Positions 33,627-55,894 of a DNA stretch of 64,000 nt are shown here, one piece after another. The position numbers and the translations under genes were made by a program. The notes beneath the pieces were generated by a model. The model saw only the letters and a program-made list of their open reading frames with translations, did no database searches and had not been told where the DNA came from. This stretch comes from Haliotis asinina (lineage: Eukaryota > Mollusca > Gastropoda > Lepetellida > Haliotidae), in contig NC_090292.1 of assembly GCF_037392515.1 (NCBI RefSeq), positions 47,605,747 to 47,669,746 on the forward strand, given 5' to 3'. How positions within the stretch are numbered: position 1 is the stretch's first letter; every line of letters starts with the position of its first letter.

Positions 33627-33660
33627 ACACTGGTGTACCTATAGCAACGACAGACACATC

Positions 33661-33697
33661 ATGGTCATGGAATGTGAGACTGTCCTGTTTCTGTCAG
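33661..33697 (+). CDS. Gene 2 exon 1, start codon and leader
   Basis: The exon begins at 33627 after CTCCTCTGTTTCCTAG; the donor is GTCAG|GTAACT. ATG GTC ATG GAA... ends in phase 1. It makes a convincing signal peptide only when joined to 35886, giving MVMECETVLFLSVLTVQG before the first Cys. A second in-frame ATG is codon 3. Confidence 0.65.
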
Positions 33698-36600
33698 GTA
33701 ACTACTGACCTTTGGCGTTTGTCGCAGCTTATAACTTACCGTTCCACATACAGCAGATAAAATATGCATACAAGATATACACCATTTAACATACATGTAT
33801 ATAAACGATATATAACAGTTATCATACATAAACACTATACAATGTTTAACATACATATTCATCATTTACCATGCATTGACAATTTACAACATGCCACATA
33901 CATGTATATAGACGATATAGCATTTATCATATAAAACCGCTAGTATACAACATTTAACATGCAAATACAGTTTATAACATGTAGCATACACATACAGTAT
34001 ACAACAGGTACAAGTATACTCGGAGCTCCAGATAAGTCGCGTATTTGCGTATTTTACTCAATCAAAATCACATTTACTCCATTGATGACACATCTTGGAG
34101 TACAAAAAAAAACACACATATGAATCACTTAAAACCCATTTGGTATATCACAATGTTGATAATTTACTCAAATGAATAAACTGGCTTGCGTATGATTCGT
34201 CATGGCGCGCAAACTCTAAAACAGCATTAGCCGATGGTAAGAGATGCTTATATAAACATATACTAATATAGCCGAAGCCACTGTGAGGGGTTACTCTAAT
34301 AGTCACATGACTTCCATGTTGAGTATTTAGAAATGGCTGTCAATTGTTTGGTAGTATGACAATTACTAAAAACTTGTAGTCCCTTGAGATGAGTTTATAA
34401 CTTCATATTTGGAAGAGTTAAGTGAGTGAGTGAAAAGTGAGTGAGTGAATGAGTGAGTTTAGTTTTACGCTACACTCAGCAATATTCCAGCTGTATGGCG
34501 GCGGTTTGTAGATAATCGAGTCTGGACCAGACAATCCAGTGATCAACAACATATGCATCGATCTGCACAATTGGGAACCGATGACATGTGCCAACCAGGT
34601 CAGCGAGCCTGACCACCTGATCCCTTTAGTTGCTTCTTTCGACACGCATAGTTGCCTTTTATCGCAAGCGTGGGTTGCTGAAGGCGTATTCTACCCCTTG
34701 ACCTTCAAGAGTCGGAAGAATTAAGTTCTCAATTTACATATTTAGAAGCGTTGAGTACCCAATAAGGATAAGAAACTCAGTGTAAAAGTACTCAATTCTT
34801 TTTACTAGTGGGAGTATAAAAAAGGCTAGTTACACCTCGTGAAAAGGTAATTGCTCACACACAAACAAACGTGGGAGAAAACATCGAGTTGCTTGAAAAA
34901 CTTATCTAGGGTTCTGGTATACACACAACATATGCATAATTCAATCTGTGCAAGCATACAAGGACAATATGCGTCACACAGTTAACTTGATACAACATTC
35001 AAGTTGGGATGTATACAGACACTGAGCTCGAGGACCAACAACCTACCCCTTTATACAATATAAACACACTTTTTACAACGGACACGCAGACATGAACATG
35101 TCCTATGTCCAATTGTTATCACCCGATTTGCTCGAACTGTAATAGCCAGGTTACATAACGGGGAAAACGAACGAAGACACATTAGGAATGTATGCAAGAT
35201 GTCTACTTGAATGTATTGTCACTATGTGAGAGTCCTGCTAACACACATATCTGCTAGATTATCTTACTACACACATGAGTGTCGCTTTCTGACTGGCTAA
35301 GCGCTATTCTATTATTTTCAATTAACCCCGCTACGGGCGAAGTATTATTTTCAGCGTACACCTCTTGGAATTCCGAACTCTTCTGGTGCTTCATTGTAGT
35401 ACTTTCTTATCTCGATTAATATTGAATCACGCATCAAGTACGGAAATTACCGATATTTTGCGATTGAAAATCGATGGAAGGGAGATAACTCTATATCTAT
35501 TTACCATGCGTCGTCTGCAAAATGGCGATTCGCCTCGCATTCAACAGAAGTCCTGCCAACAGGTCACAATTACAATTCAGGTGTAAGATAAATACGTTGT
35601 TCACTTGGGGTCCATGTCTCACATACCCTCGAGGTTTGTTTATGCTCAACTCGCCCTTCGGGCTCGGGAAACCTCGAGGGTACATGAGCCCATGGCCCCT
35701 CGCGACCAGTGAACACCTTATAATGTATTGTGTTGCAGTGCTCGCTACCACAGATATCTCCTAAAATGTGTTGCCGACATATTTCAGTCATGGCTAATAC
35801 ATATATCAACTAGAATGTATTGTCAACATACCTCAGTCATGGCTAACGCAGATATCTATTAAAATGCTTTGCCAACATGTTTCAGTTCTCACCGTACAAG
35901 GTGTCATGTTGTGTGAGTGGGGGACATATGGCAGCTACTGCAACCTCACCTGTCCGCTGAACTGTCAGACAAACGAAGTGAGACATCTACGTCACTGTCA
36001 CCAGGAGACAGGCAGATGTTCTGAGGGCTGCATTGCGGGATGGTACGGCGACATGTGCAACACTCATTGCCACCAGAACTGCAGGAACGGGGTCTGTAAC
36101 CGCCGAAATGGACAGTGTTTCCTGGGTTGTAAAGACAATCACACCTACTACGGCGATTTCTGCAATGTTACTAAACGTAAGTAGGCACGAAATGTGTCAT
36201 CAATGGGTTCAAATACAAAAAGTTTAGATTGTCTACTATCATAGCCTCTATTGTCTTCTCTATAAGGCTTTATTGCATATATTAGCTACTACATAAGGGT
36301 ATGCTGTCTTCAGTGTAAGGGACTATTGCCTATATTCGCTACTACATAAGGCTATGTTGTCTTCAGTGTAAGGGACTATTGCCCATATTAGCTACTACAT
36401 AAGGCTGTATTGTCTTCAGTGTAAGGGACTATTGCCTACATTGGCTACTGCCTAAGGGTATGCTGTCTTCAGTGTAAGGGACTATTGCCAATATTGGCTA
36501 CTACATAAGGCTATGCTGTCTTCAGTGTAAGTGACTATTGCCTATATTGGATACAACATAAGGCTATGTTGTCTTCAGTGTAAGGCTCTATTACCTATAT

Positions 36601-39600
36601 TGGCGACTACATAAGACTATGTTGTCTTCAGTGTAAGGGACTATTGCCTATATTGGCTACTACATAAGGCTATGTTGTATTCAGTGTAAGGGACTATTGC
36701 CCATATTAACTACTACATAAGGCTGTATTGTCTTCAGTGTAAGGGACTATTGCCTACATTGGATACAACATAAGGCTATGCTGTCTTCAGTGTAAGGCTC
36801 TATTACCTATATTGGCGACTACATAAGACTATGTTGTCTTCAGTGTAAGGGACTATTGCCTATATTCGCTACTACATACGACTATGTTGTCCTCAGTGTA
36901 AGGGACTATTGCCTATATTGGCGACTACATAAGGCTATGCTGTCTTCAGTGTAAGGCTCTATTACCTATATTGGCGACTACATAAGGCTATGTTGTCTTC
37001 AGTGTAAGGGACTATTGCCTATATTCGCTACTACATAAGACTATGTTGTCTTCAGTGTAAGGGACTATTACCTATATTGGCGACTACATAAGACTATGTT
37101 GTCTTCAGTGTAAGGGACTATTGCCTATATTCGCTACTACATAAGACTATGTTGTCTTCAGTGTAAGGGACTATTACCTATATTGGCGACTACATAAGAC
37201 TATGTTGTCTTCAGTGTAAGGGACTATTGCCTATATTCGCTACTACATAAGGCTATGCTGTCTTCAGTGTAAGGCTCTATTACCTATATTGGCGACTACA
37301 TAAGACTATGTTGTCTTCAGTGTAAGGGACTATTGCCTATATTCGCTACTACATAAGACTATGTTGTCTTCAGTGTAAGTGACTATTGCCTATATTGGAT
37401 ACAACATAAGGCTATGTTGTCTTCAGTGTAAGGCTCTATTACCTATATTGGCGACTACATAAGACTATGTTGTCTTCAGTGTAAGGGACTATTGCCTATA
37501 TTGGCTACTACATAAGGCTATGTTGTCTTCAGTGTAAGGGACTATTGCCCATATTAACTACTACATAAGGCTGTATTGTCTTCAGTGTAAGGGACTATTG
37601 CCTATATTGGATACAACATAAGGCTATGCTGTCTTCAGTGTAAGGCTCTATTACCTATATTGGCGACTACATAAGACTATGTTGTCTTCAGTGTAAGGGA
37701 CTATTGCCTATATTCGCTACTACATAAGACTATGTTGTCTTCAGTGTAAGGGACTATTGCCTATATTGGCGACTACATAAGGCTATGCTGTCTTCAGTGT
37801 AAGGCTCTATTACCTATATTGGCGACTACATAAGACTATGTTGTCTTCAGTGTAAGGGACTATTGCCTATATTCGCTACTACATAAGACTATGTTGTCTT
37901 CAGTGTAAGGGACTATTGCCTATATTGGCGACTACATAAGGCTATGCTGTCTTCAGTGTAAGGCTCTATTACCTATGTTGGCGACTACATAAGACTATGT
38001 TGTCTTCAGTGTAAGGGACTATTGCCTATATTCGCTACTACATAAGACTATGTTGTCTTCAGTGTAAGGGACTATTGCCTATATTCGCTACTACATAAGA
38101 CTATGTTGTCTTCAGTGTAAGGGACTATTACCTATATTGGCGACTACATAAGACTATGTTGTCTTCAGTGTAAGGGACTATTGCCTATATTCGCTACTAC
38201 ATAAGGCTATGCTGTCTTCAGTGTAAGGGACTATTGCCTATATTGGCGACTACATAAGGCTATGCTGTCTTCAGTGTAAGGGACTATTGCCTATATTCGC
38301 TACTACATAAGACTATGTTGTCTTCAGTGTAAGGGACTATTGCCTATATTCGCTACTACATAAGACTATGTTGTCTTCAGTGTAAGGGACTATTACCTAT
38401 ATTGGCGACTACATAAGACTATGTTGTCTTCAGTGTAAGGGACTATTGCCTATATTCGCTACTACATAAGACTATGTTGTCTTCAGTGTAAGGGACTATT
38501 GCCTATATTGGCGACTACATAAGGCTATGCTGTCTTCAGTGTAAGGCTCTATTACCTATATTGGCGACTACATAAGACTATGTTGTCTTCAGTGTAAGGG
38601 ACTATTGCCTATATTCACTACTACATAAGACTATGTTGTCTTCAGTGTAAGGGACTATTGCCTATATTCGCTACTACATAAGACTATGTTGTCTTCAGTG
38701 TAAGGGACTATTACCTATATTGGCGACTACAAAAGACTATGTTGTCTTCAGTGTAAGGGACTATTGCCTATATTCGCTACTACATAAGGCTATGCTGTCT
38801 TCAGTGTAAGGGACTATTACCTATATTGGCGACTACATAAGACTATGTTGTCTTCAGTGTAAGGGACTATTGCCTATATTCGCTACTACATAAGACTATG
38901 TTGTCTTCAGTGTAAGTGACTATTGCCTATATTGGCGACTACATAAGGCTATGCTGTCTTCAGTGTAAGGCTCTATTACCTATATTGCCGACTACATAAG
39001 ACTATGTTGTCTTCAGTGTAAGGGACTATTGCCTATATTCACTACTACATAAGACTATGTTGTCTTCAGTGTAAGGGACTATTGCCTATATTCGCTACTA
39101 CATAAGACTATGTTGTCTTCAGTGTAAGGGACTATTACCTATATTGGCGACTACATAAGACTATGTTGTCTTCAGTGTAAGGGACTATTGCCTATATTCG
39201 CTACTACATAAGGCTATGCTGTCTTCAGTGTAAGGCTCTATTACCTATATTGGCGACTACATAAGACTATGTTGTCTTCAGTGTAAGGGACTATTGCCTA
39301 TATTCGCTACTACATAAGACTATGTTGTCTTCAGTGTAAGTGACTATTGCCTATATTGGCGACTACATAAGGCTATGCTGTCTTCAGTGTAAGGCTCTAT
39401 TACCTATATTGGCGACTACATAAGACTATGTTGTCTTCAGTGTAAGGGACTATTGCCTATATTCGCTACTACATAAGACTATGTTGTCTTCAGTGTAAGG
39501 GACTATTGCCTATATTCGCTACTACGTAAGACTATGTTGTCTTCAGTGTAAGGGACTATTACCTATATTGGCGACTACATAAGACTATGTTGTCTTCAGT

Positions 39601-42600
39601 GTAAGGGACTATTGCCTATATTCGCTACTACATAAGGCTATGCTGTCTTCAGTGTAAGGCTCTATTACCTATATTGGCGACTACATAAGACTATGTTGTC
39701 TTCAGTGTAAGGGACTATTGCCTATATTCGCTACTACATAAGACTATGTTGTCTTCAGTGTAAGGGACTATTACCTATATTGGCGACTACATAAGGCTAT
39801 GCTGTCTTCAGTGTAAGGCTCTATTACCTATGTTGGCGACTACATAAGACTATGTTGTCTTCAGTGTAAGGCTCTATTACCTATATTGGCGACTGCATAA
39901 GACTATGTTGTCTTCAGTGTAAGGGACTATTGCCTATATTCGCTACAACATAAGGCTATGTTGTCTTCAGTGTAAGGGACTATTGCCTATATTCGCTACT
40001 ACATAAGGCTATGCTGTCTTCAGTGTAAGTGACTATTGCCTATATTGGATACAACATAAGGCTATGTTGTCTTCAGTGTAAGGCTCTATTACCTATATTG
40101 GCGACTACATAAGACTATGTTGTCTTCAGTGTAAGGGACTATTGCCTATATTCGCTACTACATAAGGCTGTATTTTCTTCAGTGTAAGGGACTATTGCCT
40201 ATATTGGATACAACATAAGACTATGTTGTCTTCAGTGTAAGGGACTATTGCCTATATTCGCTACTACATAAGACTATGTTGTCTTCAGTGTAAGGGACTA
40301 TTGCCTATATTCGCTACTACATAAGACTATGTTGTCTTCAGTGTATGGGACTATTACCTATATTGGCGACTACATAAGACTATGTTGTCTTCAGTGTAAG
40401 GGACTATTGCCTATATTCGCTACTACATAAGACTATGTTGTCTTCAGTGTAAGGGACTATTGCCTATATTGGCGACTACATAAGGCTATGCTGTCTTCAG
40501 TGTAAGGCTCTATTACCTATATTGGCGACTACATAAGACTATGTTGTCTTCAGTGTAAGGGACTATTGCCTATATTCGCTACTACATAAGACTATGTTGT
40601 CTTCAGTGTAAGGGACTATTGCCTATATTCGCTACTACATAAGACTATGTTGTCTTCAGTGTAAGGGACTATTACCTATATTGGCGACTACATAAGACTA
40701 TGTTGTCTTCAGTGTAAGGGACTATTGCCTATATTGGCGACTACATAAGACTATGCTGTCTTCAGTGTAAGGCTCTATTACCTATATTGGCGACTACATA
40801 AGACTATGTTGTCTTCAGTGTAAGGGACTATTGCCTATATTCGCTACTACATAAGACTATGTTGTCTTCAGTGTAAGGGACTATTGCCTATATTCGCTAC
40901 TACATAAGGCTATGCTGTCTTCAGTGTAAGGCTCTATTACCTATATTGGCGACTACATAAGACTATGTTGTCTTCAGTGTAAGGGACTATTGCCTATATT
41001 CGCTACTACATAAGACTATGTTGTCTTCAGTGTAAGGGACTATTGCCTATATTCGCTACTACATAAGACTATGTTGTCTTCAGTGTAAGGGACTATTACC
41101 TATATTGGCGACTACATAAGACTATGTTGTCTTCAGTGTAAGGGACTATTGCCTATATTCGCTACTACATAAGGCTATGCTGTCTTCAGTGTAAGGCTCT
41201 ATTACCTATATTGGCGACTACATAAGACTATGTTGTCTTCAGTGTAAGGGACTATTGCCTATATTCGCTACTACATAAGACTATGTTGTCTTCAGTGTAA
41301 GGGACTATTACCTATATTGGCGACTACATAAGGCTATGCTGTCTTCAGTGTAAGGCTCTATTACCTATGTTGGCGACTTCATAAGACTATGTTGTCTTCA
41401 GTGTAAGGCTCTATTACCTATATTGGCGACTACATAAGACTATGTTGTCTTCAGTGTAAGGGACTATTGCCTATATTCGCTACAACATAAGGCTATGTTG
41501 TCTTCAGTGTAAGGGACTATTACCTATATTCGCTACTACATAAGGCTATGCTGTCTTCAGTGTAAGTGACTATTGCCTATATTGGATACAACATAAGGCT
41601 ATGTTGTCTTCAGTGTAAGGCTCTATTACCTATATTGGCGACTGCATAAGACTATGTTGTCTTCAGTGTAAGGGACTATTGCCTATATTCGCTACTACAT
41701 AAGGCTGTATTGTCTTCAGTGTAAGGGACTATTGCCTATATTGGATACAACATAAGACTATGTTGTCTTCAGTGTAAGGGACTATTGCCTATATTCGCTA
41801 CTACATAAGACTATGTTGTCTTCAGTGTAAGGGACTATTGCCTATATTCGCTACTACATAAGACTATGTTGTCTTCAGTGTAAGGGACTATTGCCTATAT
41901 TCGCTACTACATAAGGGTATATCGTCTACTATGTAGGGTTCTTTTATCAGCTGTATGAGGCTCTATTGTCTAATACATACTGAGTCAAAAAAGACACTTT
42001 ACAAAATGTAATTTTTAAAAATGAATAATGAATACTTTTTCTCTGATGCATCTATGTATCCGAAATGGGATCCCTATCTTTCGACTCTAGAAACACGTTA
42101 GCAAAACCCACTCAAACCCATCCATTCGTTGTGCAAATAACGTTAGTGCCAATTCAGGTTTTAAATGGGGCAGTCGATCACGTGATCTTCACATCGAAGG
42201 TGTTTTTCATTGGCACATGTTTACACTGGCCTCACGAATTGCAAAAATACTTTTAAACCACTGTTCTAACGGTACTTTAAATGGCACGAATGTCAAATAT
42301 GCAATGTGAACGTACCGTTGGCATGTTACAAGCTGGAAGATCAAGTACTGATGTCGCAAGAGTAATGGGATGCAGTCGTTGAACTTCTGCGTTGAGAGTC
42401 TGCTTGACTATACAACTCTCTGTTGTCTACCACATGCAACTGTGTATTCCTCTTTAAGGCAGTGTAAGGCTAATTTGTTCTGTTGTATCTGGCTACATGA
42501 TACTGTGGGGTCCTCTACAAGGCAATACAAGGTTATGCATTCTGCTGTATCAGGATCTATCCCATTGTGTAGTCCTCTATAATTCTATATAAGGCTGTTT

Positions 42601-44213
42601 ATTCGGCTCTATCAGGCTATATGGTGCTGTGTAGTCCTGAATAAGGCAATATAAGGCTATGTATACTGCTGTACCAGGCTCTATCCGATAAGGTCTATAA
42701 GGTCATATCAGGCTATATATTTTGCTATATCAGGCTATATGCGAGTGTGTTGCCCTCTGTAATGCTGTACAATGCTTCTACTACAAAGGCCATAGCACAG
42801 TTCATCTCACTCGAATAAAAGCGACAAAACCCTGTCTACTTATGTAAGAGGTTATCCGACAAAAGCAGACGTCTAGTTAACTAAATCACTTAGTCGGAGT
42901 TTATGAAACAATCACAAATAGAAGATCATAGCCAGAAAATAATCGGATCCTGCTCCACCAATGTCGCTTGTCGGAACTACTTACAGACATGATGGAATAC
43001 AAGAGGGATGTGTTCAATATTCACTAATCCGCCTACATATAAAACCTGCAGTCTTGTTGGGGTGGTGGTGTAGACAGGTTGTTAAAGTGAACTGGGTAAC
43101 CCATTGGTTAAAGCATCCGCCCTTCACATTGAACAACCGGTTTCAATTCCATATATGCATCCACTGCATCAATCTAACTTTGGTATCCACCGCCATGGTA
43201 TTGCTGGAATATTTCTATACTAGTTCACTCACTCACTGTTCAAAAAAGAAACACTTTTTTATTTTCTGTTAAGAACAAGCGCCACCTGACGGCCACACAG
43301 GTGAGAAGACAGGAAGCGACTTGGCCAGCATCTTGGTCCCCGTCGTCTTCATCATTGCCGTAGCAGCAGCAGTCGTTGTAGCCGTGATAATGGTCATAAG
43401 GTAAAGGGACTTCCAAATAACATTTCTTCCCCTTCAGTTTTCTTTTGATGAAACGTTCTATTTCAACCAAAGTAAACACCAGTGTACCCAGTAAACAACA
43501 CTTTAACTGTATGTCACACCAAGTATATTGTATGCCCAATAAACAACAGTATGGCTGTAAGTAACATCAAGCATATTGTACACCCAGTAAACAACAGTAT
43601 GGTTGTATGTAACACCAAGTATATTGTATGTCCAGTAACCAACAACTTAACGGTATATGACGCCAGGCATATTGTAACCCAGTAAACAACAGTGTGGTTG
43701 TATGTAACACCAAGCATATTGTACAACCAATAAACACCAGTATGGCTATATCTAACATCAAGCATATTGTACACCCAGTATGGTTGTAGGTAAAACCAAG
43801 TATGCTCTATACTCAGTAAACAACAGTATGGTTGTATGTAACACCAAGTATTTTGTATTCCCAGTAAACAACAGTTCAACGGTATATGACGCCAAGTATT
43901 TTGTACATCCAGTTAACAATAGTCTGGTTATATGTAACACCAAGCATATTGTACACCCACTTAACAACAGTTCAGCTGTATATAACACCAAGTTTACTGG
44001 TACCATAAACGTCTTTGGTGCGTCTTTGAATGACAGGCTATGTACCATAGCAGACCTTTTGTCTTTCGATTGTGGTGGCGTCGCTAGTCGCCTTCCTAAT
44101 GATAACGTTCATATCATAATTTACCTTGTAGATATCGTCAAAGGAGAAGAGCGGTTTCCCTTAATGCAAGGTATGTTATCTGTTATCTTCTCAAATCGTC
44201 TATAATCTGTATA

Positions 44214-44244
<31 letters not shown>

Positions 44245-44312
44245 TGTGTACGTGTGTGTGTCTGTGTGTCTGTCTGTATGTATGTATGTGTGTATGTATA
44301 TATGTATGCATA

Positions 44313-44355
<43 letters not shown>

Positions 44356-47300
44356 AGAACTACTAGTAGAGTGCTAGGATCTGGAAAAACACCTCAAACG
44401 TGTTATACTGAGCAAGGAGCTGGCAGATGAGAACTTGTTTATAATGTTCAAAACTGAGGACTGAGCGTATGTCTTTCAGAACAAGTAGGCCTATACAGTT
44501 GCTTTGACCGCGGAGAGTTTGCCATATGGCCGGAGACTGAGTAGGTCCGGATGTGTCTCCAGGTGTCCTGGTTTTGTTTGAGGAGACACAGAGAACTGCT
44601 GACCTTCTGACCACAGGTGTCGTGTTGGCTTGCAGACGTGAATGAGGTCTGTGAGATTTGATGAGGCGAGTCTATGTAGATATCTGTATACCATCACTGG
44701 TATCTTGAAAGCCCGTATCTCCCTCGATAAACTTACTCCAGATAAAATTGAAAACCTTCCCCGACACCTACGCAACTAAATAGCATCATTTAATACCTTA
44801 TCAGTTTTAATTTCATGACAAATTCGCCCTGAAGATCCGGGCTAACACTGGCCTTCATTAACCCATGCTTCTCGTAAGAGGCGATTAACGGGATCCGGTG
44901 GCCAGGTTCGCTGACTTTGTTGTCACATGTCATCGTATCCCAAATGCGCAGATCGACATTAATGCTGTTTATCACTGCATCGTCTTGCCCTTGACTCCAT
45001 TATTTACAGATCGCCGCCATATAACTGGGATGTTGCTGAGTGCGGCGTAAAACTAAAATCACTTACGCATAATAAATTCAAGTCCAACTGTATGTCTAAC
45101 TGTGTTAGAACATGCTGGTTTCAGAGATTTTAAGAAAGCTTCTTCCATTTGAGGAGCACACATCATTACCCAGAGCGGAGTATACATGTAGTACTGAGGT
45201 CAGATGTATCCGTTTGTTAGAAACTAATTATACACCTGGAAATTAATCAAGCAACACCCCAATTTTTTCTATTGGAGCAACTTTGAAGTGTTCTGACAAT
45301 CAAAATATGCCGGGTTGATATAGTTTGACACTTTTTTATTCAACAGACGATCTCTGACAAACAACTTAAAGAGAAAAAATATCAAGACTTTGCTTTATTG
45401 CAACGAAATCCAAATTCTTAAAACTGTCTTAAATTCATGAAAAAATGGACACAATTTACTATTCATCCACAGACGTTGTTGTCAGGTGTATTAACACAAA
45501 TGTCACATGGAAAGAAAGAACAGTCATCTGAGAGTCTGCACACCGACTTTCATCAATATCTAGTGTGTCCTCCCTGCGCACGCACCACCGATTCCAGACG
45601 CCTCCTCATTCCTTGGATGAGTCTCCGGATCTGATTCTGGGGGATCCTGTTCCACTCCTCATGCAGGGCAGCCGTCAATTCGTTGAGATTATGGACTGGT
45701 GGGTCTCTCTGCCTCACACGACGGCCAATAAAGTCCCACAAATGTTCAATGGGGTTGAGGTCAGGGCTCATGGCAGGCCATGGAATTCTGTCAATTGCAT
45801 TTGCCGCAAAAAATCATTTACAGCATGCGCCCTGTGAGGTCTAGCATTGTCGTCCATAAATATGGGTCTCGTTGCCAGAGGATGGTTCTCAAAATGAGGT
45901 ACCACAGCCCTGTCAAGAACCTCCTGTTGGTAACGAACACCGTTAAGGTTGCCACGGATGGTAATGATATCCAACTTGCAGTTCATGGAAATGCACCCCC
46001 ATACCATAACGGAACCTCCCCCAAAGGCCACAGTCTCCTGGATGTTCCGTGGAGCCATTGCTGTGTTCCTCTGCCTCCAGACCCGAGTACGACCGTCCAC
46101 CATGTGCAGCAAGAACCGGCTCTCATCTGAGAAATGGACCTTCCTCCAAGAGGCAATGTTCCAGTGCAAACGGTCATTACACCAGGCCAGTCGGGCTGCC
46201 TTATGGGCTGGAGACAGTCTGGGTCGCTTGATTGGCCTCCTTGCCCGGTATCCTGCAGCTTTCAGACGATTCCGAACAGTCCTGTTCGAGATGGGTCTCC
46301 CTGGAAGCCACTCCTGTCTCAACCGAGAGCTCGAGTCGAAGGACCTGCGCCGTACAAGTCTCAGTAAAGCTCTGTCCTCCCGGACTGTGGTCTTCCTGGG
46401 TCTTCCTGGTCTAGGCAGGTCTTTAACTTCATTAGTGGCCCGGTATTTTTTCAAAAGTTTTGAAATTATGGAATGATGTCGTCCGATTTGAGTCCCGATT
46501 TGTCTTAGAGACATACCAGCATTCCTCATGCCGATTATTTGCCAACGAGTGGCCTCTGATAATTTCCTACGTGCCATGACATTGAAATGAATGAAAAACC
46601 GAATGCAATCGACAACCTGCGCTTGTAAACACCCCAGGGAAAAAGTGCATTTTTCGAAAGTTGAGGTTAAAGCAATGCACGTGCGCTGTGCAAGCTTCAC
46701 GCGCGTCATATCAACCCATGAAAAGCTCATGCTGTATGTCAATACATCAAAATTGAATAATCAATCATCAAAATTACTTCGTTAAACTTTGTTAAGTTTT
46801 TATGTGTCTTTGAATTTGGTGTTGCTTAATTAATTTCCATATGTATATATTATGTAAATATTCGGAAATACGTTTGCTTAAAGGAAAAAAAGCTTCGATG
46901 TATATACGATCAACACATGTGCAACTAGTTTGAAAGGCGACATAGGTAAACGTGAACCTAGAATATAACTAGTCTATGAGATGTAATTAACTTTGTCAAA
47001 ATTAAAAGTTCACAAATCAATACAAGTTTTATTGAAGGTGTGTCTGTCAGTATTAAACAAAGTGACAGACCAGATAATACGCGAGTAGTGAGTGTAGCTA
47101 TAAAATAATATACTCGGCTCTTTCTAATTGGGATCTAACCTGCAGCTTATACTAGAAACGGCATACTGATCTTTACACGCAAGGCTGGTCTTGCAGGAAC
47201 GTCTCTTGAGATGGGAGGCAGGACACAAGAACAATATGCTGGTTGCACACCGCCAAATGTTTTCCCATAGACTTTTATACTATACTTTTGAAAAATCATC

Positions 47301-50300
47301 CAGGCTGTCAACAGCCGTTCCATGTACACACGGGTGTGGAATATAGACTGCAATATAAACCTTATCCTGCCGATTTTCCGAGCTCAGAAAGCTGAACACA
47401 TCATACCCTGTTCCGCACAAAATGTCACCTACTTGAAAATATCTGCACAACATATTAAACATAACTCATGAGGATAAAATCGCAATACAATTGTGGTCAG
47501 TTTTAAAGACTATACCAAACTTACATTATTTCATCCAATCACATCTGTTCAGATGTTTACAAACGCTACTCGCTCAGGATTCGTATTTCGCGTAGTGAAA
47601 CCTATTGGACAGTCCTACACAAAATCAGATGATTCTGGTTTATTTGTGGGATAAACATCATGTGCTGGCCAATATCCGGTTTTCATTGAGCATTTGAAGC
47701 ACGGGGATTCATCTGAAAGAGACGGCCAATGGTCAATAACACCCATAACGCCCGAAAATTGGTCAACACACGATGTTCATGGACAGTGTAAACACAAAGG
47801 TAAACCGAACGGCCCATGGGAGTTTTACTGTTTCCTCTCATTTACATATGTGTGGGTACAGCAGTGAAGTGTCATCAGCTGGACGTTTCAGGTGGTGCAA
47901 TGGTAGCATCTGGACCTGCCCATGTGTGTCGTCATTCCGACTTTACGTCACAATATGATTTGAATGACGTCACCACTGTTGACAACGCAACCATACAAAT
48001 GTGGTGTGCGGTATGTCTACGTATCAATATGCAGAGAAAGGTCATGGAATCGAATACCAAAACGTAGCGTTTTTTGCAACCAATCAGATTAAAGCTCATC
48101 ATGACATTTGGCTTACAGCATTAACGCAAAGTGACAACAATGGCCCGGGGACTTCTTAGAATAATCATACATTCTTGGAGAAAACATTCTGAAATAAGCA
48201 GAAAAGATAGTAAAAACACCGATGAAATAAAAAAATCACAGATACAATGCTCATTTCATACATGATCTCTGCATTATGGTAGTCTACAGAAACTACAGTT
48301 CATCATGAGTTTCAAAATAACTCTACGTTAATTAGAAATTCTCCAACTACAGGCACGTATATTCCACGGACTTAAAATATTCTTCTAGTTACACTTCCCA
48401 GACAAGGCTACAATCTCCAATGCCAGGTGCTTTTTCTTTGGTTGCTGAAAACATATTCTACCCCAGATCTTCATGGGTCTTCTCCGTACAAGCGGAATTG
48501 TAGAGACCCTGATCCTAGTCACGATAAACAGAACTTCCTGGGCAACAAACCATGCTCACAAAGAATACTAAAATTAGATATAAACGGTATAATAGTCATC
48601 GTTGCTTTCTGAAATAAGAATGAACCCAATGAACAATAAATGTAACCTGTTCACACCAAATATATCTCTTATTACGCTTATTGTGGTTTTTTTCCAGATC
48701 TTTCTGTATAAATCTAGCAAAGGTTTCCACATGACATACCGAATGCCACATGTATATTGTATATTGTATTACCTGGAGCATTGTTGCACGATGAATAGCA
48801 CTGAGAGACAACAGTTATGGAACTCATTGCCATCGACACAAAGAAGCATAGCTCTCCCCTTAAAACCCACCGCTACTGATCACTCTCTCACAAGACCTTT
48901 ATCAGTGTGCATACATGTGGGAATGGACTAGTTTTTATCCCCCCGGCATGTGATGTGGGGAGATATAGTTGACGCCTCGTCTGTCTATCCGTATTTCCGT
49001 CCGTCCGTATTCATCTTTTTTTCCGGAGCATAACTCAGAAACCGTTCAATATTTTAGACCAAAGTTGACAGATATAATAATCTCAACCTATGGTTGTGCC
49101 TTTTGCTATTTCCAGCTTTTTGGCATTATTATTATTATTTTATTATTATTATTATTATTTGTTTTGTTTTTCCATGGAACATTTTGGTGTTAGACTAATG
49201 GTGTGGTGGGCTTCGTTTCCGGAGCAGAGCTGAAAAACCGTTCAACATTTATTGTGCATAACTTGGTGCCTTTTGCTGTTTTGTTTTTTTCATTTATTTT
49301 TCCCGTTTCCAAACAATTCTGACTTAGTCTGAAACTGAAGGGACGGACTTCGTTTCTAGAGCACAACTCGAAAACCATTTCATATCCTTCAACAGCTCGT
49401 GGCTGATATAAGAGACAGATCTTGAAGTGGTGCCTTTTGCTGTTTACAGATACATGGCAAATTATATTTTGCATGACTTCCATGGAAACGATTCAAACTT
49501 AAACTAAGAAAACATCAAGTACTTCTCAGATAATTTGTCCCTTCAAATATTTCTGGGTCGGGGGATATGTCATCGTCTCATGACTCTTGTTGATTTGGTT
49601 AGACGCCAGTGAACACCTGTCGACACTAAGAACGCAGGAAAACAGTTGTGATTATTAAACGTCCTCTCTAGCTTTATATCATACTCCCTGTGTTTTTTTT
49701 CTTTCAGTGGTCACGAAGAAAGTGAGTATCACGTGCACCCGTTTCGTAAAATTGTACATCATATTCTATTAAGCTAATACTGATAAAATTTAAAAGCAAA
49801 GCAAGGCTGTAAGCAAGATGTCAATATCATGGTTGTATGTGTCGTGAGGACCCACTGTAGAATGTTTGCAAGTCATAATCTCACTTAAATGTAAACGTTT
49901 CCATGGCGATTCCATCCAGGCAGTGGTGACATTGTATCACTTGTTACACTGCCGTCCTTGTGTCCATGTTAGCTCGACGTATCTTGGGCATCATCTTCAT
50001 GCATATTTTCACAATTTCACATGTAAACATTTATGGTCTTTATAGTGACTCTGCTGAGGAGCCCAGGTAAAGGTGGTGGTAAGTATGCCATATTTCTAGC
50101 AACGTGTCATTTAATGACAGTTTCTGGCAAGTTCCCTTTAAAAAGTTACCGTGTTGTGTTTCTTAAATAATTACACAGATCGATGTTCGTGATGTTGATC
50201 GCCTGATTTCATAATCCAGACCACTGACACATAGTCGAAATGTTGCTTAGTCTTAAACAACAACCAAACAAGCTAATCTGAAAAATAGGACAACCACTTG

Positions 50301-53300
50301 TTGCAATGAGCAACTAACGGGATCATTTGGGTGATTTAGTCAGCCTGTCCCAACTGTGTAAGTCGACGCTCCTGCCAGATGTCGTTTGGTTAATGCATGA
50401 AACGTTTAGAAGCACAACACACCAATGTTACCTCTACTTTCGCGTCAGTCATTTCATTTGTTTGATGATCACTGTGTAGAAGGTACCTCCATTACCATAT
50501 AATGGTATGACCGCCTGTTCAATACCAGATGACATGATCCTCTGTTCAATACCTGATGACAGCTGTATCAGTACACAAGTTGTATTTTCACATGACGCCG
50601 TTCAGCCTCTGACAGACGTTGTAACAATTTAAACTTTGTATGTTCAAATGTGTATTTTCTATCTGGCATTAGTTGTATCAATACAATGGTTGTATATTGA
50701 AAGATGTTTCAATGTACACTGTAGCGCTAAGGATACGTTGATGTTGTTGGAACTTGTACTTTTCTCTTCAGAACCTTCTGCCATGGGAAGACGTGCAGAC
50801 ATCCACAGTATGTATACCTTTTCTAGAATGAAATCACTGCAACGTTTTCTGCAATATCTTTAACCTAAGGTGCGATAGCATTGCTTAGCCTTCACCAAAT
50901 CAATTAGCAACATGGGCACTGATGCACCGGGTCAACTGTTACAAACTTAACCCCATACAACAACGTAGTTGGAGGCCAGAAAAGGCTCATCTGGTGATGC
51001 AATGTACGCTGTATTCTGTTACAGACTGACGCCTATACAGCAACTCAGTTGGACACTAGGGAAGGCTCTAATAGTCTTCTGATTTACCCTGTAACCTGTT
51101 ACAGACTGACGCCTATACAGCAACTCAGTTGGACACTATGGAAGGCTCTAATAGTCTTCTGATTTACCCTGTAACCTGTTACAGACTGACGCATATACAG
51201 CAACTCAGTTGGACACTAGGGAAGGCTCTAATGGTCTTCTGATTTACCCTGTAACATGTTACAGACTGACGCCTATACAACAACTCAGTTGGATACTAGG
51301 GAAGGCTCTAGTGGTCTTCTGATTTACCCTGTAACCTGTTATAGACTAAAGTATACACAAAACTAAATCTGATATACCTACTTTGTGTTAAGGCAAGGAA
51401 AGTTGATCAGCTTGATGATAAGGAGGGGTTCATTGCTAGACGTGAGTTACACTCAGGGTTTACTTGTAGACACAAAAGAAGTGGACGACTCACCTGACAC
51501 TGTGAATGTACTGAGGAGAGTGCCATCTGACAATGCTGGAATCATGAGCCCAGGTGAGATTTAATTATTTATTTATTTTTATTTTGGCTGCTTTTTTAGG
51601 GGGATGGGGGTTGTGGGATTTATTTTTTATGCTGATGTTTTGGTAATACCTGCCAGTCACATATTATTGTAAGACCCCGGGTCATTAGTAACCCATTCTC
51701 GTCGTCAGAAGTGACCAATGGGATCGCGCGGTCAGGCTGGCTGACTTGCCACATGTTATCGGTTCCCAATTCCCTGAGTCAAGGACTCATGCTGTTGATG
51801 AATGGACTATTATTTACAGACCGCTGACCTATAGCTGCAATATTGCTGAGTGCGGCGTTAATTCCTACAAATATTTCATGGAAAACAAGATCTAAACATG
51901 AAAACACTTTCTGTAGTTGCCATGAGAGCGTGGCTGTATCATCCCTTGTGTCATTGCCTGACTGTAGATATTCAGGCCTTGGTTAACTGTTTCCAAATTC
52001 ACCTTTGGACGGAAAGTATCAATTTATTCCAAGCGCATATGTGTAATTCCTTAACGGCGAGGAGGCTTGTGACAAAAATCAGAGCATTATTTGCATGACA
52101 TCATGGTGTCACCGATTATACGAAACAAACTTAACTCATGGAATAATAATGATATTATTCAACAGATGCAGTGGACAGAGAAATAGCCAAAATTACAGAC
52201 GTCTTCGTAGAGGCCTCCAGCTACAAGAAGGTCAAGGACATTCTGGAGCAACACGGTCATGTGACAATGTCGGGTGCGGCAGGTGGGGGAAAGACTTCTA
52301 TCGCCCTCATGTTAGGGTCACATTATCAACAACGTGGATTTCAACTGGTTGTTGTTGTAGACGTTTGCAATTTCAAGTTATCAGATTACACTGATCTTGG
52401 AAAGGGTGTGTGTTTAATATTTCGTGATGTATTCAGGAGGCTAGACTTCTCCAGAGATTTATGTCAGTTCAGGGACGTTCTCCGGGAACTTTGGAGACAT
52501 CTCCACGGATCCAGGAAAGGGTCGGATACAGGGGAGGAGCCACGACGCAAGGTTTATGCTATATTTACAACAAACATGGATTACGTTGAAACTGGAATAT
52601 CACAACTTGAGGAGCTGGAAGACATCTTCTTCAAGGGCCCTTCATTCCTAGACGTGACAGACCTGAGGTTAACAGCAGAGGAGAAGAAGGGCATATTTCT
52701 CCAGCATTGCAAGAATATTAAGATACAGTTAAACATGATTTGTCAATATGAACAGTCAATCCTAGGCTTTCCTCAAGCGTGTAAACTCTTTGTCGAATTT
52801 CCAAACTTCCAAAAGTATTCGGAACGATTTTTCCAGGCACCATTCCGTTATCTTAGGGAAGAGCTTCTCGAAATTCTTCGAGGTCTTGATGATAAGGCTG
52901 CTGCCTTTGTTGTGATGTTTCTTTATGACGGTGACCTCAACCTTCACCAAGTAGAACGTAAATCAGACAACACAATGCTGGAGTCCATCTTTACAACGAT
53001 AGAGGACGTTGTACAGATATCATCCAGAACAGCTGTTGCAATGGCAGTCAGACAATTCCGGGGCACCTTCTTTACCAATGGAGATAGAACAGGTTTTTCA
53101 CATCGTTCCATATATAACGCGTGCGCCTGTGCACTGTTCGACGTCAATCCATCCTTTGCTCTGAAGCACTGCCGGACCCAGTTCATCCATGAACACGTGC
53201 AAGGTCAACAAGGGGACACAACTCTCGTCAACAAATACGAGCCACGTGTGTATCTGTCAGATGTTTACACTGACGTCCTGGAAGTCAGATTGTCTGGTAT

Positions 53301-55696
53301 ATAGTTTCCACTATTATTTATGAAGAGTGTGTGAGTGGGTGAGTTGGTTTTACGACACTGTAAGCAATATTTCAGCCGTATCACGCGGGGAACACCGGAA
53401 ATGGGCTTCACACATTGTACCCGTATGGGGAATCGAACCTGGTGTGACGAGCAAATGATTTAACCACTAGGCTACCTCACCATTCCTATGTATGACGAAA
53501 AGTAATGCAAATTCTTTACGCATTTACTGTATTTTACTGAAAAATCTCTAAAAGCTCATGGAAAAAAATTAAAGTTAAAAACACATCATCTTATTTCACC
53601 TGTTTCATCCAATGCCACGGTGATTTGTGTAATGTCGACACTGAGATATCAGTGGTCCGTCCATGCAGTGATGGCTGTGTATAGTGTATGCTAAAGTCTC
53701 ATGTGCCATGTTGTGGAGACTGGTTGTACTAAGGCATGGTATGAATAAACATTAAGAATGAAACCCGTAGACAAAGTGCTTCAGCATGTTTAAAGAATAT
53801 GCCAGTTTTTAAAATTAAACTATTCTTGTTTCCCCAATAGTATTAAGGAAATTAATCACAGTTTTTTAATGCTTATATATTTTTTTTTTATCAGAATTAG
53901 ATGAAAGGGAATCTTCAAGGGCGGGAAGGTCATCGAAAGGAGTCTGCAACTCTGGTGTGTTAAGCCAAGGTAAATATGTAGGGATTCATCAGTGGAAAAG
54001 CATCTAATTTCCTTATTTTTGGTGTTTAACTTTGGTGAAAATGGAATCTGTTGTAGCTGAATTCTGTGTTTTCCATACTCTCTTGTATGTTCTCCTTGTA
54101 TACATTTACAACATTCGACCCTCTTGTATATATTTAACAGATATCAATTTGAAGATTTAAAATTAAAAGATTTGAAGAAAAAAGTTGACCACAGAATTCA
54201 CATACATTTTAAACATGTACTGTCTGTCATCGAACGAAAGTATCTAGGACTGAGAGTTTCTAGGACTTAAGTCCTGCGCCACAACGAAACACATGTGGGA
54301 TAAAGTCATGTGACTGTAACCTCCTAGCGCCTAACAGGCAGTTTTGATTATCTGAGATAATAGTAACACACAGATTGTTTGGGCGCATTGAGTGGACATT
54401 GTGCATGGAGAAATGAGCATGACAACTGGAGTGTCATTGTTATTACGGTCTGGGTGGAAGATTTGTTCACTGCTAGGTGTGTTGATGAAATGTGGCGTAT
54501 ATTTTTCATTACCTTCAAATTAATTGACAGATGTATTGGACAATGAGCTGGCTGAAACGAAGAAGCACTTCATTCAAACGTCCATCTACCAGAAGGTGCA
54601 AGAGGAACTGGAGAAGCACGGTCACGTGGCAATGTCTGGAGCAGCTGGCGGAGGGAAGACATCCATCGCCCTCATGTTAGGGTCACACTATCAACAAATG
54701 GGATTTCTACTCATATTTGTTGTTGACATTTGCAAATTCAACTTGTCTGATTACATTCATCGTGGAATGAATGTGTGTTTCATATTTCGTGATATTTTCA
54801 GGACGCTACACGTTTCAAAACAACCCGTCATCAAGAACTTTCTTGTGGAACTTCATCAATATTTTGTGAACTTCCCAGCTTTGCCTGATAGGAAACGTAG
54901 AACACCATCATTAAAGAAAAAGCAGGAGACTGTCTACGCCATTTTCACTTCAAACAGCCCTGGTGTTACAAGTGGAATAGCACAGCTTGAGGAACAGGAA
55001 AGTTATTTCTTCAAAGGGTCTTCAGTGGTTGACTTCACAAACACGTCACACTGTCAATACACCAGAGAAGACAAGAGGAACATCTTCATGAATCATTGTA
55101 AACATGACCAAACATCCCTAAATGTAGAGTCAGTCTGCAGCTATGGTGACTCCTCCCTTGGTTTCCCTCAAACATGCAAACTCTTTTTTGGATATCCGAA
55201 TTTTCAGCAGCATGGTGAAGAGTTTTACCAGACTCCCTTCTTTTACTTGAGAGAGGAACTTCTTTCAATAATTCGTCAAATGAATGGGCAATCGGCTGCC
55301 TTCATACTGATGTTCATGTGTTCAGATAAACTCAACCTGAGAGAGTTAGAGACTTCTGAGAATCCAGTAATTGAAGATCTGCTGATGACAGTGAATAGTG
55401 TTGTTCAAGTGAAGTCACGGACAGCTGTAGCCATGTCCATCAGAATGTTCCGTGGCACATTCTTCACAAAAGGAGACATCACGGGATTTTCACATCCTAC
55501 AATATACGATGGCTGTGCTAATGCCCTGTTCGATTTCAACCCATCCTTTGCCTTGGAATGTTGTCATATTCAGTTCCTTCGTGATCATGTTCAAGTCTGC
55601 CAAGGAGATAATACAAAGGTGGACCCATACAGCCCATCGATCATCCTGTCGCATGTATATGCTGAGGCGCACGCCAGCCGACTGGCTACCAAGTGA
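33661..55696 (+). CDS. Gene 2: EGF-transmembrane-STAND NTPase receptor with two alternative NTPase ends
   Basis: Common exons: 33661-33697 (ATG), 35886-36176, 43274-43400, 49708-49721, 50046-50078, 50772-50807, 51398-51553. End A adds 52166-53304 (610 residues). End B adds 53895-53969 and 54531-55696 (644 residues). All sites are GT/AG, every phase matches and both totals are exact codon multiples. Order: signal peptide MVMECETVLFLSVLTVQG, EGF-like repeats (~13-109), transmembrane helix (~129-151), ~80-residue linker, then a P-loop NTPase with GAAGGGKTS. The NTPase resembles nSTAND3: Walker A, then FPQACKLF...FF..PF and a helical C-terminus. STAND proteins are nucleotide switches in immunity and cell death. 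Here the switch would lie under the membrane beneath an EGF ectodomain; a role in sensing or clearance is inference. Additional exons in unread introns are possible. Confidence 0.75.
33740..34010 (+). repeat. Degenerate 'acatttaacatacatgtata' repeats
   Basis: AT-rich imperfect tandem units in intron 1 of gene 2. Confidence 0.6.
34011..34420. other. Gene 2 intron 1, no feature recognised
   Basis: Intronic sequence without a repeat or exon that I can support. Confidence 0.35.
34421..34700 (-). mobile_element. SINE-2-like element, near full length
   Basis: On the minus strand it runs from the CGACTAACGGGATC-like block through GATCACTGGATTGTCTGGTC to AGCTGGAATATTGCTGAG, GCGTAAAACTAA and an (ACTC)n tail, which appears as GTGAGTGAGTGA at the left edge. 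The tail resembles that of the LINE. Confidence 0.75.
34701..35624. other. Gene 2 intron 1, no feature recognised
   Basis: Intronic sequence without a repeat or exon that I can support. Confidence 0.35.
35625..35681. repeat. Foldback sequence in intron 1 of gene 2
   Basis: ACCCTCGAGGTTT and its reverse complement (35669-35681) flank a loop that itself contains CGCCCTTCGGGCTCG. Possibly the core of a small foldback element. Confidence 0.6.
35886..36176 (+). CDS. Gene 2 exon 2, EGF-like repeats
   Basis: Acceptor GTTTCAG, donor AAAC|GTAAGT, phase 1-1, 97 codons. It contains CEWGTYGSYCNLTCPLNC, then CIAGWYGDMCNTHC and CNRRNGQCFLGCKD: two to three EGF-like units of the kind seen in gene 1. Confidence 0.85.
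36240..41925 (+). repeat. 53-bp satellite array, about 107 units, intron 2 of gene 2
   Basis: Unit pattern: GACTATTGCCTATATTCGCT, ACTACATAA, then GACTATGTTGTCTTCAGTGT and AAGG. Main variants are TTGCC...TTCGCTAC versus TTACC...TTGGCGAC, and GGCTATGCTG...AAGGCTC. They are interspersed in recurring blocks, so expansion worked on multi-unit segments. No long open frame. Nearly every unit keeps TTGTCTTCAG followed by TGTAAGG. Confidence 0.98.
41926..42369. other. Intron 2 of gene 2, no feature recognised
   Basis: Unique AT-rich sequence right of the satellite. A short open frame at 42065 has no support. Confidence 0.4.
42370..42790 (+). repeat. Degenerate ~95-bp repeats
   Basis: Imperfect units around 'tcctctataaggcaatataa' and 'ggctatgtattctgctgtat', possibly an old relative of the neighbouring 53-bp satellite. 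Confidence 0.6.
43058..43238 (+). mobile_element. tRNA-derived SINE
   Basis: A tRNA-like head with TGGTTAAAGCATCCGC (A-box area) and GGTTTCAATTCC (B box), then a body ending in ATTGCTGGAATATTTC and ACTC units. It sits 36 bp upstream of the gene 2 transmembrane exon. Confidence 0.7.
43274..43400 (+). CDS. Gene 2 exon 3, transmembrane segment
   Basis: Acceptor TTCTGTTAAG, donor ATAAG|GTAAAG, phase 1 in and 2 out, exactly as in gene 1 exon 3. A polar juxtamembrane stretch (QQAPPDGHTGEKTGSD) is followed by ILVPVVFIIAVAAAVVVAVI. Confidence 0.82.
43480..44000 (+). repeat. 48-bp minisatellite
   Basis: About 11 units around CCCAGTAAACAACAGTATGG and AACACCAAGCATATTGTAC in the intron after the transmembrane exon. 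Open frames on both strands are due to the period. Confidence 0.9.
44218..44355 (+). repeat. (TATG)n and (ATCT)n microsatellites
   Basis: Two adjacent tetranucleotide arrays with a degenerate GT-rich centre. Confidence 0.93.
44390..44775 (-). mobile_element. LINE fragment, L2/CR1-like ORF2 C-terminus
   Basis: Minus-strand reading LHRLASSNLTDLIHVCKPTR then SEGQQFSVSPQT resembles the C-terminal '...LAPSYLSDLL...LRSS...L..P' signature of L2/CR1-type LINEs. It continues after a frameshift with IRSVLSFEHYK. Old and short. Confidence 0.55.
44826..45062 (+). mobile_element. SINE-2-like element
   Basis: Contains CCCATGCTTCTCGTAA, GCGATTAACGGGATCC, CACATGTCATCGTATCCC, then ATGTTGCTGAGTGCGGCG and TAAAACTAAAATCACT. 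Confidence 0.75.
45233..46843 (-). mobile_element. Tc1-family DNA transposon, near complete
   Basis: TA target duplications (45231-45232, 46844-46845) flank ~26-bp terminal inverted repeats (CACCTGGAAATTAATCAAGC at the left; inverted with three to four mismatches at the right). The length of ~1.6 kb is normal for Tc1 elements. The single gene runs on the minus strand. It lies in an intron of gene 2. Confidence 0.92.
45553..46577 (-). pseudogene. Tc1 transposase with one frameshift
   Basis: Start at MARRKLSEATRWQIIGMRNA; the frame continues upstream but the homology does not. An N-terminal helix-turn-helix (NAGMSLRQIGTQIGRHHSII) is followed by GRPRKTT. The catalytic core has HFSDES, FMDDNARPH and, in another frame, SPDLNPIEHLWD, which together supply the D, D and E residues. 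A one-base loss near 45805 separates the frame ending HGLP from the one carrying the last catalytic Glu. Normal full length would be ~341 residues. It cuts and pastes the element at TA sites. Confidence 0.9.
46846..48937. other. Gene 2 intron, no feature recognised
   Basis: No exon fitting the phase-2 to phase-1 chain and no named repeat was seen in this 2.1 kb. Confidence 0.4.
48938..49570 (+). repeat. Interspersed element with three internal ~150-190-bp degenerate repeats
   Basis: The block 'tttccggagcataactcaga' / 'aaaccgttcaa' recurs near 49022, 49210 and 49352. The unit is bracketed by 'ccccccggcatgtgatgtgg' and 'gggtcgggggatatgtcatc'. Family unknown to me. Confidence 0.5.
49708..49721 (+). 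CDS. Gene 2 exon 4, 14-nt micro-exon
   Basis: TTTTTTTTCTTTCAG|TGGTCACGAAGAAA|GTGAGT: very strong sites on both sides. It encodes SGHEE plus one base and changes phase 2 to phase 1, exactly what is needed to connect the transmembrane exon to the phase-1 linker exons. Confidence 0.55.
50046..50078 (+). CDS. Gene 2 exon 5, linker
   Basis: 33 nt, phase 1-1, acceptor TCTTTATAG, donor GGTG|GTAAGT, reads MTLLRSPGKGG. An alternative donor 12 nt earlier (CCCAG|GTAAAG) would also keep frame. Confidence 0.5.
50150..50405 (+). mobile_element. Degraded SINE-2-like fragment
   Basis: Short blocks such as 'gcaactaacgggatcatttg' and 'gatgttgatcgcctgatt' match the SINE-2 family, but order and spacing are disturbed. 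Confidence 0.35.
50772..50807 (+). CDS. Gene 2 exon 6, linker
   Basis: 36 nt, phase 1-1, acceptor TTTCTCTTCAG, donor CACA|GTATGT, reads EPSAMGRRADIH. Basic residues. Confidence 0.5.
50941..51345 (+). repeat. 80-bp minisatellite
   Basis: Four clear units (starting near 51021, 51101, 51181, 51261) and a diverged one to the left, in the intron before exon 7 of gene 2. Confidence 0.92.
51398..51553 (+). CDS. Gene 2 exon 7, linker
   Basis: 156 nt, phase 1-1, open throughout. The acceptor GGCAAG|GA is the second AG after the tract; using the first AG (51391-51392) would give a stop in this phase. Reads through GSLLDVSYTQGLLVDTKEVD to IMSPG, donor CCAG|GTGAGA. Its phase fits both 52166 and 53895. 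Confidence 0.55.
51672..51862 (+). mobile_element. SINE-2-like element, divergent
   Basis: Contains GTAACCCATTCTCGTCGTCA, CACATGTTATCGGTTCCC and AGCTGCAATATTGCTGAGTG, then GCGGCGTTAA. The tail is eroded. Confidence 0.65.
52166..53304 (+). CDS. Gene 2 terminal exon A, STAND NTPase
   Basis: Acceptor ATTCAACAG, phase 1 in, stop at 53302-53304. Walker A G268-AAGGGK274-TS. The expected acidic Walker B reads VCLIFRDVF (313-321). The sensor-like strand reads KVYAIFTTN. nSTAND3-type GFPQACKLF (432-440), FFQAPF and a helical C-terminus with FSHRSIYNACACALF follow. Poly(A) signal at 53744. Confidence 0.88.
53327..53481 (-). mobile_element. tRNA-derived SINE in the 3' UTR of NTPase isoform A
   Basis: On the minus strand it starts GGTGAGGTAGCCTAGTGGTT (A-box area), has GGTTCGATTCC (B box), and ends CGGCTGAAATATTGC...GTCGTAAAACC plus ACTC units. 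This is the clearest SINE copy in the window. Confidence 0.82.
53744..53749 (+). other. Poly(A) signal after NTPase exon A
   Basis: AATAAA, 440 nt after the stop; the intervening 3' UTR contains a tRNA-type SINE. Confidence 0.55.
53895..53969 (+). CDS. Gene 2 optional linker exon before NTPase exon B
   Basis: 75 nt, phase 1-1, acceptor after a poly-T tract (TTTATCAG), donor CAAG|GTAAAT. Reads ELDERESSRAGRSSKGVCNS then GVLSQG. It can be included or skipped without changing frame. Confidence 0.6.
54531..55696 (+). CDS. Gene 2 terminal exon B, STAND NTPase
   Basis: Acceptor AATTGACAG, phase 1 in, stop at 55694-55696. It is collinear with exon A over its length, with roughly half the residues shared by eye: GAAGGGKTSIALMLGSHYQQ, VCFIFRDIF, VYAIFTSN, GFPQTCKLF, FRGTFFTKGD and FSHPTIYDGC. 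Exon B has a longer basic insert (PDRKRRTPSLKKK) before the sensor strand. Poly(A) signal at 55889. Confidence 0.88.
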
Positions 55697-55888: not shown

Positions 55889-55894
55889 AATAAA
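55889..55894 (+). other. Poly(A) signal after NTPase exon B
   Basis: AATAAA, ~190 nt after the stop. Confidence 0.55.

Follow-up and report, generated by a model that had tools for sequence, protein, structure and literature searches.

The 64,000-nucleotide stretch of Haliotis asinina DNA analysed here (the window; C13:47605747-47669746 of the host assembly, which comprises 1.14 Gb in 159 contigs and in which the genome searches were run) probably contains a single gene encoding a type I single-pass receptor with alternative nSTAND3 ends, a short member of its family whose nucleotide hydrolysis would be impaired and which would serve as a scaffold, partner or decoy. This reading draws on the predicted exon chain, the domain homology, the family, the two possible ends, the residue losses and the constraint on both ends, all taken from the sequence. 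From 33661 to 55696 the layout runs from a signal peptide through about two EGF repeats and a transmembrane (TM) helix to a linker followed by an nSTAND3 P-loop domain; the predicted features are as follows:

33661 to 33697, plus strand: exon 1, start codon and first half of the signal peptide (MVMECETVLFLS); donor in phase 1
35886 to 36176, plus strand: exon 2, end of the signal peptide and about two EGF repeats (laminin/MEGF-type)
43274 to 43400, plus strand: exon 3, stalk and hydrophobic transmembrane helix (LASILVPVVFIIAVAAAVVVAVIMVI); donor carries 2 bases
44132 to 44170, plus strand: exon 4, basic juxtamembrane exon (YRQRRRAVSLNA); phase 2 in and out, site scores 3.8/5.8
49708 to 49721, plus strand: exon 5, 14-nt microexon (GHEE); phase 2 in, 1 out
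50046 to 50066, plus strand: possible linker exon (TLLRSP), tentative; phase 1 in and out, sites 1.5/4.2
50772 to 50807, plus strand: possible linker exon (PSAMGRRADIH), tentative; phase 1 in and out, acceptor 7.1, donor only 0.4
51470 to 51553, plus strand: linker exon ending in ...SDNAGIMSP; phase 1 in and out, donor 6.6, acceptor 0.6, alternative acceptor 51393
52166 to 53304, plus strand: alternative terminal exon A, nSTAND3 domain N1 with stop codon; PF20720 5.7e-15
53744 to 53749, plus strand: AATAAA, 440 bases 3' of the end A stop, with a further A[AT]TAAA at 53568; weak
53895 to 53969, plus strand: linker exon of end B (LDERESSRAGRSSKGVCNSGVLSQ); phase 1 in and out, sites 8.6/5.3
54531 to 55696, plus strand: alternative terminal exon B, nSTAND3 domain N2 with stop codon; PF20720 1.2e-13
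55889 to 55894, plus strand: AATAAA, 193 bases 3' of the end B stop; weak

Splice-site scores were obtained with approximate matrices. The exon 1 donor at 33697 (GTCAG/GTAAC) was the top-ranked of 9 start-exon combinations in the range 24000-35880 (12 kb upstream), and the ATGs at 33661 and 33667 scored equally. Exon 2 gave no EGF match of its own in the Pfam scan; within the window it aligned to the long MEGF-like exon at 16-17 kb (38% identity, E 1e-18), and the phase-1 acceptors of the EGF exon were worked out by hand in four paralogues. A C4 relative of the EGF exon passed the laminin-EGF cut-off and two C13 relatives scanned alongside passed none. The product of exon 4 (YRQRRRAVSLNA) would sit directly inside the membrane, and the brevity of the 14-nt microexon leaves other frames open too. 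The middle linkers (50046, 50772, 51470 or 51393) are gene-specific and remain uncertain in the window gene, with no alignable counterpart shown for the exon at 50046-50066. A 15-base 'intron' between 51441 and 51457 was rejected as too short, an exon start at 51470 or 51393 being preferred. The poly(A) signals were dropped as evidence: those of the window were consistent and those of the 54.85-Mb gene were not, the sole A[AT]TAAA of its gap sitting 3' of the linker candidate.

The predicted proteins have 595 and 629 residues with the preferred exons, and 576-633 residues across the eight combinations tried (four linker choices with both ends), all of them in frame, with a single terminal stop and with the ends 34 residues apart. 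The whole-codon frame with either end announced in the original prediction was thus obtained throughout, as was its difference of 34 residues, but not its lengths of 610 and 644 residues. Its exons and splice sites were found at or near the places given and its Walker A sequence (GAAGGGKTS) in both nSTAND3 exons; its junction 43400/49708, however, passes over the basic exon at 44132-44170, which has a counterpart in all five paralogues read. The HMM search that it proposed recovered nSTAND3 (PF20720, both ends) and not EGF.

Taken alone, the exon chain is weak evidence. Shuffling the TM-to-NTPase stretch still gave a frame-compatible chain from phase 2 to phase 1 in 50 of 60 trials (loose thresholds); at strict thresholds these 8.7 kb hold two small exons (44132-44170 and 49708-49721), compared with about one on average in the shuffles, and at least two small exons open from phase 2 arose in 4 of the 60. 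The chain of GT/AG sites and phases described originally is therefore present but alone does not exceed chance, and the splice chain as proof of one gene was rejected after the shuffles. The one-gene structure is considered real because it recurs in paralogous genes.

The search of the genome with the EGF exon returned 151 matches, the best on C13, and the searches with the two nSTAND3 exons returned 117 and 77. The C13 sets comprise 11 full, undisrupted EGF loci (disrupted and partial matches excluded) and 12 undisrupted nSTAND3 loci (pseudogene pieces and remote matches excluded). An nSTAND3 exon lies downstream, on the same strand and within 20 kb, at nine of the 11 C13 EGF loci (window gene included); the remaining two have no nSTAND3 nearby, and none has it in another arrangement. 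Random-strand trials, which treat tandem copies as independent, reached nine co-linear loci in 5 of 2000 cases. One of the excluded partial EGF matches (54838492, minus strand) has an nSTAND3 exon 15.5 kb off, on the other strand and in the wrong arrangement. None of the 59 EGF rows that we counted on C4 has an nSTAND3 match within 20 kb.

Five of the eight EGF-nSTAND3 paralogous pairs were read, as parts of genes (those at C13:44.04, 53.23 and 53.33 Mb were left out), and the chain of EGF, TM, basic exon, 14-nt microexon and nSTAND3 was found in order and phase in the window gene and in all five. Each of the first four has, between EGF and nSTAND3, a TM exon with L[AT]AILVPV, whose donor carries two bases, matching the window gene (by hand); their basic exons, open 2>2, encode WRRRRN, RKRKSRPTPT, RSRRRREKKRRYPYNEY and RRRKRGEKGW..., and their 14-nt exons, open 2>1, AQHA, SDEA, TPEA and PSEE (GHEE in the window). 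Some of these basic and 14-nt exons are open in other phases too, and every intron contains further small-exon candidates. Between 6 and 60, the only length with a strong candidate in at least two of the five introns was 14, present in all five at thresholds set post hoc; at slightly higher thresholds the 14-nt candidate was present in four of the five introns and in none of 200 shuffles. The fifth paralogue (L070) was fetched only after the rule had been seen in the others, and contains EGF, TM, basic (LRRRRRRKANIES, 2>2) and 14-nt (FQED, 2>1) exons, its TM exon (phase 1>2) being divergent and lacking the ILVPV motif. A candidate acceptor of one phase precedes the nSTAND3 domain in all 33 genomic rows read, several of these acceptors being weak and some rows having acceptors in other phases as well; the acceptor of exon A is in phase 1, like the other nSTAND3 loci read. 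A clear counterpart of the signal exon was recognised in one of the four paralogues tried (L066; within the fetched flanks). On this sequence evidence, EGF-TM-nSTAND3 receptors appear to form a local family to which the window gene belongs, and the repetition of the chain in the five paralogues supports the claim that a single gene links the EGF ectodomain and TM helix to the cytoplasmic nSTAND3 domain.

Both terminal exons pass the Pfam cut-off for nSTAND3 (PF20720, 27.2 bits), with 55.8 bits at 52165-53301 and 51.5 bits at 54524-55693. N1 and N2 share 51-52% identity, with a dS of 2.09 (near saturation) and a dN of 0.376 over 377 codons (dN/dS near 0.18), indicating that both ends have long been kept under constraint. 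Since N1 has its own stop and N2 its own in-phase linker (53895-53969), the two most plausibly serve as alternative terminal exons, the transcript ending either in 52166-53304 or in 53895-53969 plus 54531-55696. A tandem nSTAND3 pair also exists in a second gene (54.854/54.856 Mb, C13), with a same-phase linker candidate between. N1- or N2-like pieces were observed at C13:55.49, 55.20, 41.22 and 52.41 Mb, at no more than 86% identity and most with stop codons; the two kinds occur together at the first three of these four places.

The catalytic motifs were compared in 32 aligned genome rows, all from fetched loci and a subset of the genome matches, and in four bacterial rows; C11_18.93, C13_53.234 (missed by the Walker A pattern) and three pseudogene loci were left out of the Walker B count. 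Walker A (GxxGxGK[ST]) is kept as GAAGGGKT in N1 and N2. Walker B (hhhhDD) reads IFRD in both, Arg replacing the first Asp, and DD is present in 26 of the 32 genome rows and in all four bacterial rows. The six non-DD rows are: N1 and N2 (RD), 54.854 (ND), 54.856 (HD) and two C4 rows (KN). C13_53.234 reads IFDD, and the second Walker B Asp is invariant in the six rows compared. The sensor Arg (TTR strand) is replaced in the window copies (TTN/TSN); it is present in 8 of the 32 genome rows and in all four bacterial rows, its absence therefore marking a wider group, beyond the window gene. The GxP motif is a defining STAND trait, and a motif of this type, LGFPQ.CKLF, is present in both ends, its Pro aligned in the four bacterial rows. 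The likeliest reading of these motifs is that the window nSTAND3 domains would bind nucleotide and hydrolyse it poorly, the loss of a single Walker B Asp being no proof that hydrolysis is lost. Two distant nSTAND3 loci at C4:70.24 and 70.42 Mb (L009, L007) have the Walker B sequence IKNTFG, apparently a separate loss.

The nSTAND3 exon of paralogue L064 continues directly into ankyrin repeats (Ank_2, 16 stretches), and ankyrin repeats follow nSTAND3 in all six long paralogues scanned (L064, L026, L029, L030, L040, L048). An EGF exon lies upstream in L064, L029 and L040; in L026 (C13:48.75) and L030 (C11) none was recognised in about 8 kb upstream, where hydrophobic stretches are present (e.g. 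L068:6665). The Pfam scan detected no ankyrins in N1 or N2. The general form of the family is EGF-TM-nSTAND3-ankyrin, the window gene being a short member without ankyrins. The tree places the seven long EGF-linked C13 rows in a clade of their own (100/100), does the same for the four short ends (100/99), and joins the two clades with C13:48.75 in a 12-row group (90/83). The simplest order would be that an EGF-TM unit was fused to an nSTAND3-ankyrin gene and that the ankyrins were then lost in the short branch. At a further locus (L067, C4:3313801-3321800), an EGF exon belonging to this family is followed on its own strand, about 4.5 kb downstream, by ankyrin repeats; no nSTAND3 match lies nearby and no TM exon was recognised. 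Given the 59 EGF rows on C4, a larger EGF-ankyrin family may exist.

Three other explanations of the locus were weighed. That it is made up of two or more adjacent genes, a small EGF/TM receptor being independent of one or two nSTAND3 genes that have starts of their own, would fit the large intron-like gap at 43401-52165 and the ease with which chance allows linking chains (50 of 60 shuffles), but this is very improbable in view of the co-linearity at nine of 11 loci, the TM, basic and 14-nt exons in all five paralogues read, the phase-1 acceptors before the nSTAND3 domain in 33 of 33 rows, and the position of the first in-frame ATG of N1, which is the Met immediately before Walker A; the separate-gene reading was rejected on the recurrence in paralogues. 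A single receptor gene with fully active nSTAND3 ends, in which the Asp-to-Arg change is tolerated, would agree with the intact Walker A, with the second Walker B Asp invariant in six rows and with the constraint on both ends. We consider it unlikely: the first Asp is lost in all four short ends, whereas the other eight rows of the 12-row tree group have DD (seven in the aligned set plus C13_53.234).

It is more doubtful still that the window gene is a decaying family member on its way to becoming a pseudogene: the N1- and N2-like pieces at 55.49, 55.20 and 41.22 Mb are mostly disrupted by stops, the ankyrins are gone and the introns are filled with satellite and Tc1-like sequences, yet both ends are open over about 380 codons with a dN/dS near 0.18, and the splice sites are intact. 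The preferred reading is still that of one receptor gene, with alternative ends that probably hydrolyse poorly. The proposal that this protein couples a receptor to an NTPase switch thus stands as regards the fusion in one gene, and loses ground as regards a working switch, the Walker B Asp being changed to Arg, the sensor Arg to Asn, and the ankyrins absent; coupling 'without an adaptor' and an 'immune' role are inferences of that proposal.

STAND proteins have been characterised chiefly as sensors in the cytosol. Beyond the anatomy, the mechanism proposed here is modelled on their biology. With the predicted type I topology, the EGF ectodomain would engage either a ligand or an adjacent receptor, and ectodomains would cluster, while the TM helix and the basic strip would position the tail at the membrane. 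The clustering of long members would drive nucleotide binding and oligomerisation of nSTAND3, and their ankyrins could serve as a brake or a docking site, holding or recruiting partners. The short receptor of the window gene, probably able to bind nucleotide but hydrolysing it little if at all, could be a nucleotide-bound scaffold, or could act on the long receptors as a decoy or regulatory partner; splicing would pick N1 or N2, and the chosen end would set the partner. A bolder and rather speculative version, in which we place limited confidence, is that animals have a class of surface receptors in which a STAND switch with ankyrins itself forms the cytoplasmic tail, that short members carrying two exchangeable, hydrolysis-dead STAND ends serve specifically to modulate the long ones, and that splicing thereby picks the switch which a surface sensor blocks or primes. 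An EGF ectodomain, a TM helix and nSTAND3-ankyrin on one chain would allow a direct test of adaptor-free STAND switching by a surface ligand, and the short members make it possible to compare intact with probably impaired tails in a single receptor frame.

Other sequences were observed in the window. A MEGF-like gene at 14552-19017 has a signal exon, an EGF exon of about 343 residues, a TM exon and a short tail. Its EGF, TM and tail exons recur at 20520-23588 in a tandem copy of 4571 bp that is nearly identical. The copied unit begins between 15400 and 15500, 3' of the signal exon, and therefore leaves that exon uncopied; alternatively, the duplication is an assembly artefact. A 5.7-kb tandem array at 36228-41915 (periods 106, 159 and 265 bp) occupies most of the EGF-TM intron. 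The minus strand at 45801-46760 contains a Tc1/Tc3-like transposase frame, in the intron after the basic exon, and non-LTR retrotransposon-like frames (zinc-knuckle, endonuclease, reverse transcriptase, RNase H; by eye) are present at 4334-9335 (plus strand) and 57443-62115 (minus strand).

Relatives of the two nSTAND3 exons were also searched outside the host. None was confirmed in viral or GTDB prokaryote contigs and none was found in phages; in plasmids, six weak matches to the P-loop end were obtained, and four of these were fetched and are the bacterial nSTAND3 rows used above. The sequence search of solved structures gave no meaningful match, PHROGs nothing convincing and Rfam no match. 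PADLOC and NCBIfam gave partial matches, at the P-loop end, to the anti-phage models PDC-S73 and DS41_1, which were not taken as a sign of membership. The bacterial relatives are Mrr-endonuclease/nSTAND3 proteins (L001-L003) and a further nSTAND3 protein (L004) whose gene neighbours that of a small endonuclease. They share with the window ends a homologous nSTAND3 domain and Walker A, and differ in their intact Walker B DD and TTR and in giving no EGF match (Pfam).

The engulfment receptors MEGF10 and Draper have EGF repeats and a single TM helix. The window protein, by comparison, has only about two EGF repeats, with 15 Cys before the TM helix (signal peptide counted), and a STAND-type tail; NPxY is absent from the tails of both ends, which contain one YxxL and three ITIM-like matches in total, unpaired, so that neither the many repeats nor the NPxY/ITAM-type tail of MEGF/Draper proteins is present. 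MEGF/Draper-type corpse clearance, invoked in the original prediction, would accordingly be an analogy only.

No description of an EGF-TM-nSTAND3 or EGF-TM-nSTAND3-ankyrin protein was found in the open-licence PMC papers searched, where nSTAND3 is mentioned in connection with a bacterial defence system and with a mosquito virus; the nearest systems are from two other molluscs. The SudRes1 region of Biomphalaria sudanica, a schistosome-resistance region, encodes MEGF receptors with tyrosine phosphatase tails (PMC12297450, in the part of the text available). As in the window gene, these are snail single-pass receptors with MEGF ectodomains, clustered paralogues and an enzyme-type cytoplasmic part; unlike it, they have a tyrosine phosphatase tail and a galactose-binding domain. 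About 50 proteins of Crassostrea virginica combine a cysteine-rich ectodomain, a TM helix, DED, TRADD-N and variable domains including STAND NTPases, and within the NCOA6 clade of TRADD-N only the orthologue is attributed to non-bivalve molluscs (Kaur et al. 2021, PMC8195603, in the sections available). They resemble the window gene in the Cys-rich ectodomain, the TM helix, the cytoplasmic immune-type module, possibly with a STAND NTPase, and the lineage-specific expansion in a mollusc. They differ in placing DED and TRADD-N between the membrane and the variable C-terminus, whereas nSTAND3 follows a short linker in the window gene, whose EGF and nSTAND3 exons gave no DED or TRADD-N in the Pfam scan. 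As far as the available parts of the two papers describe them, neither system has nSTAND3 directly behind the membrane; a receptor-STAND fusion is thus already known in a bivalve, and the EGF-TM-nSTAND3 chain would be a new form of it.
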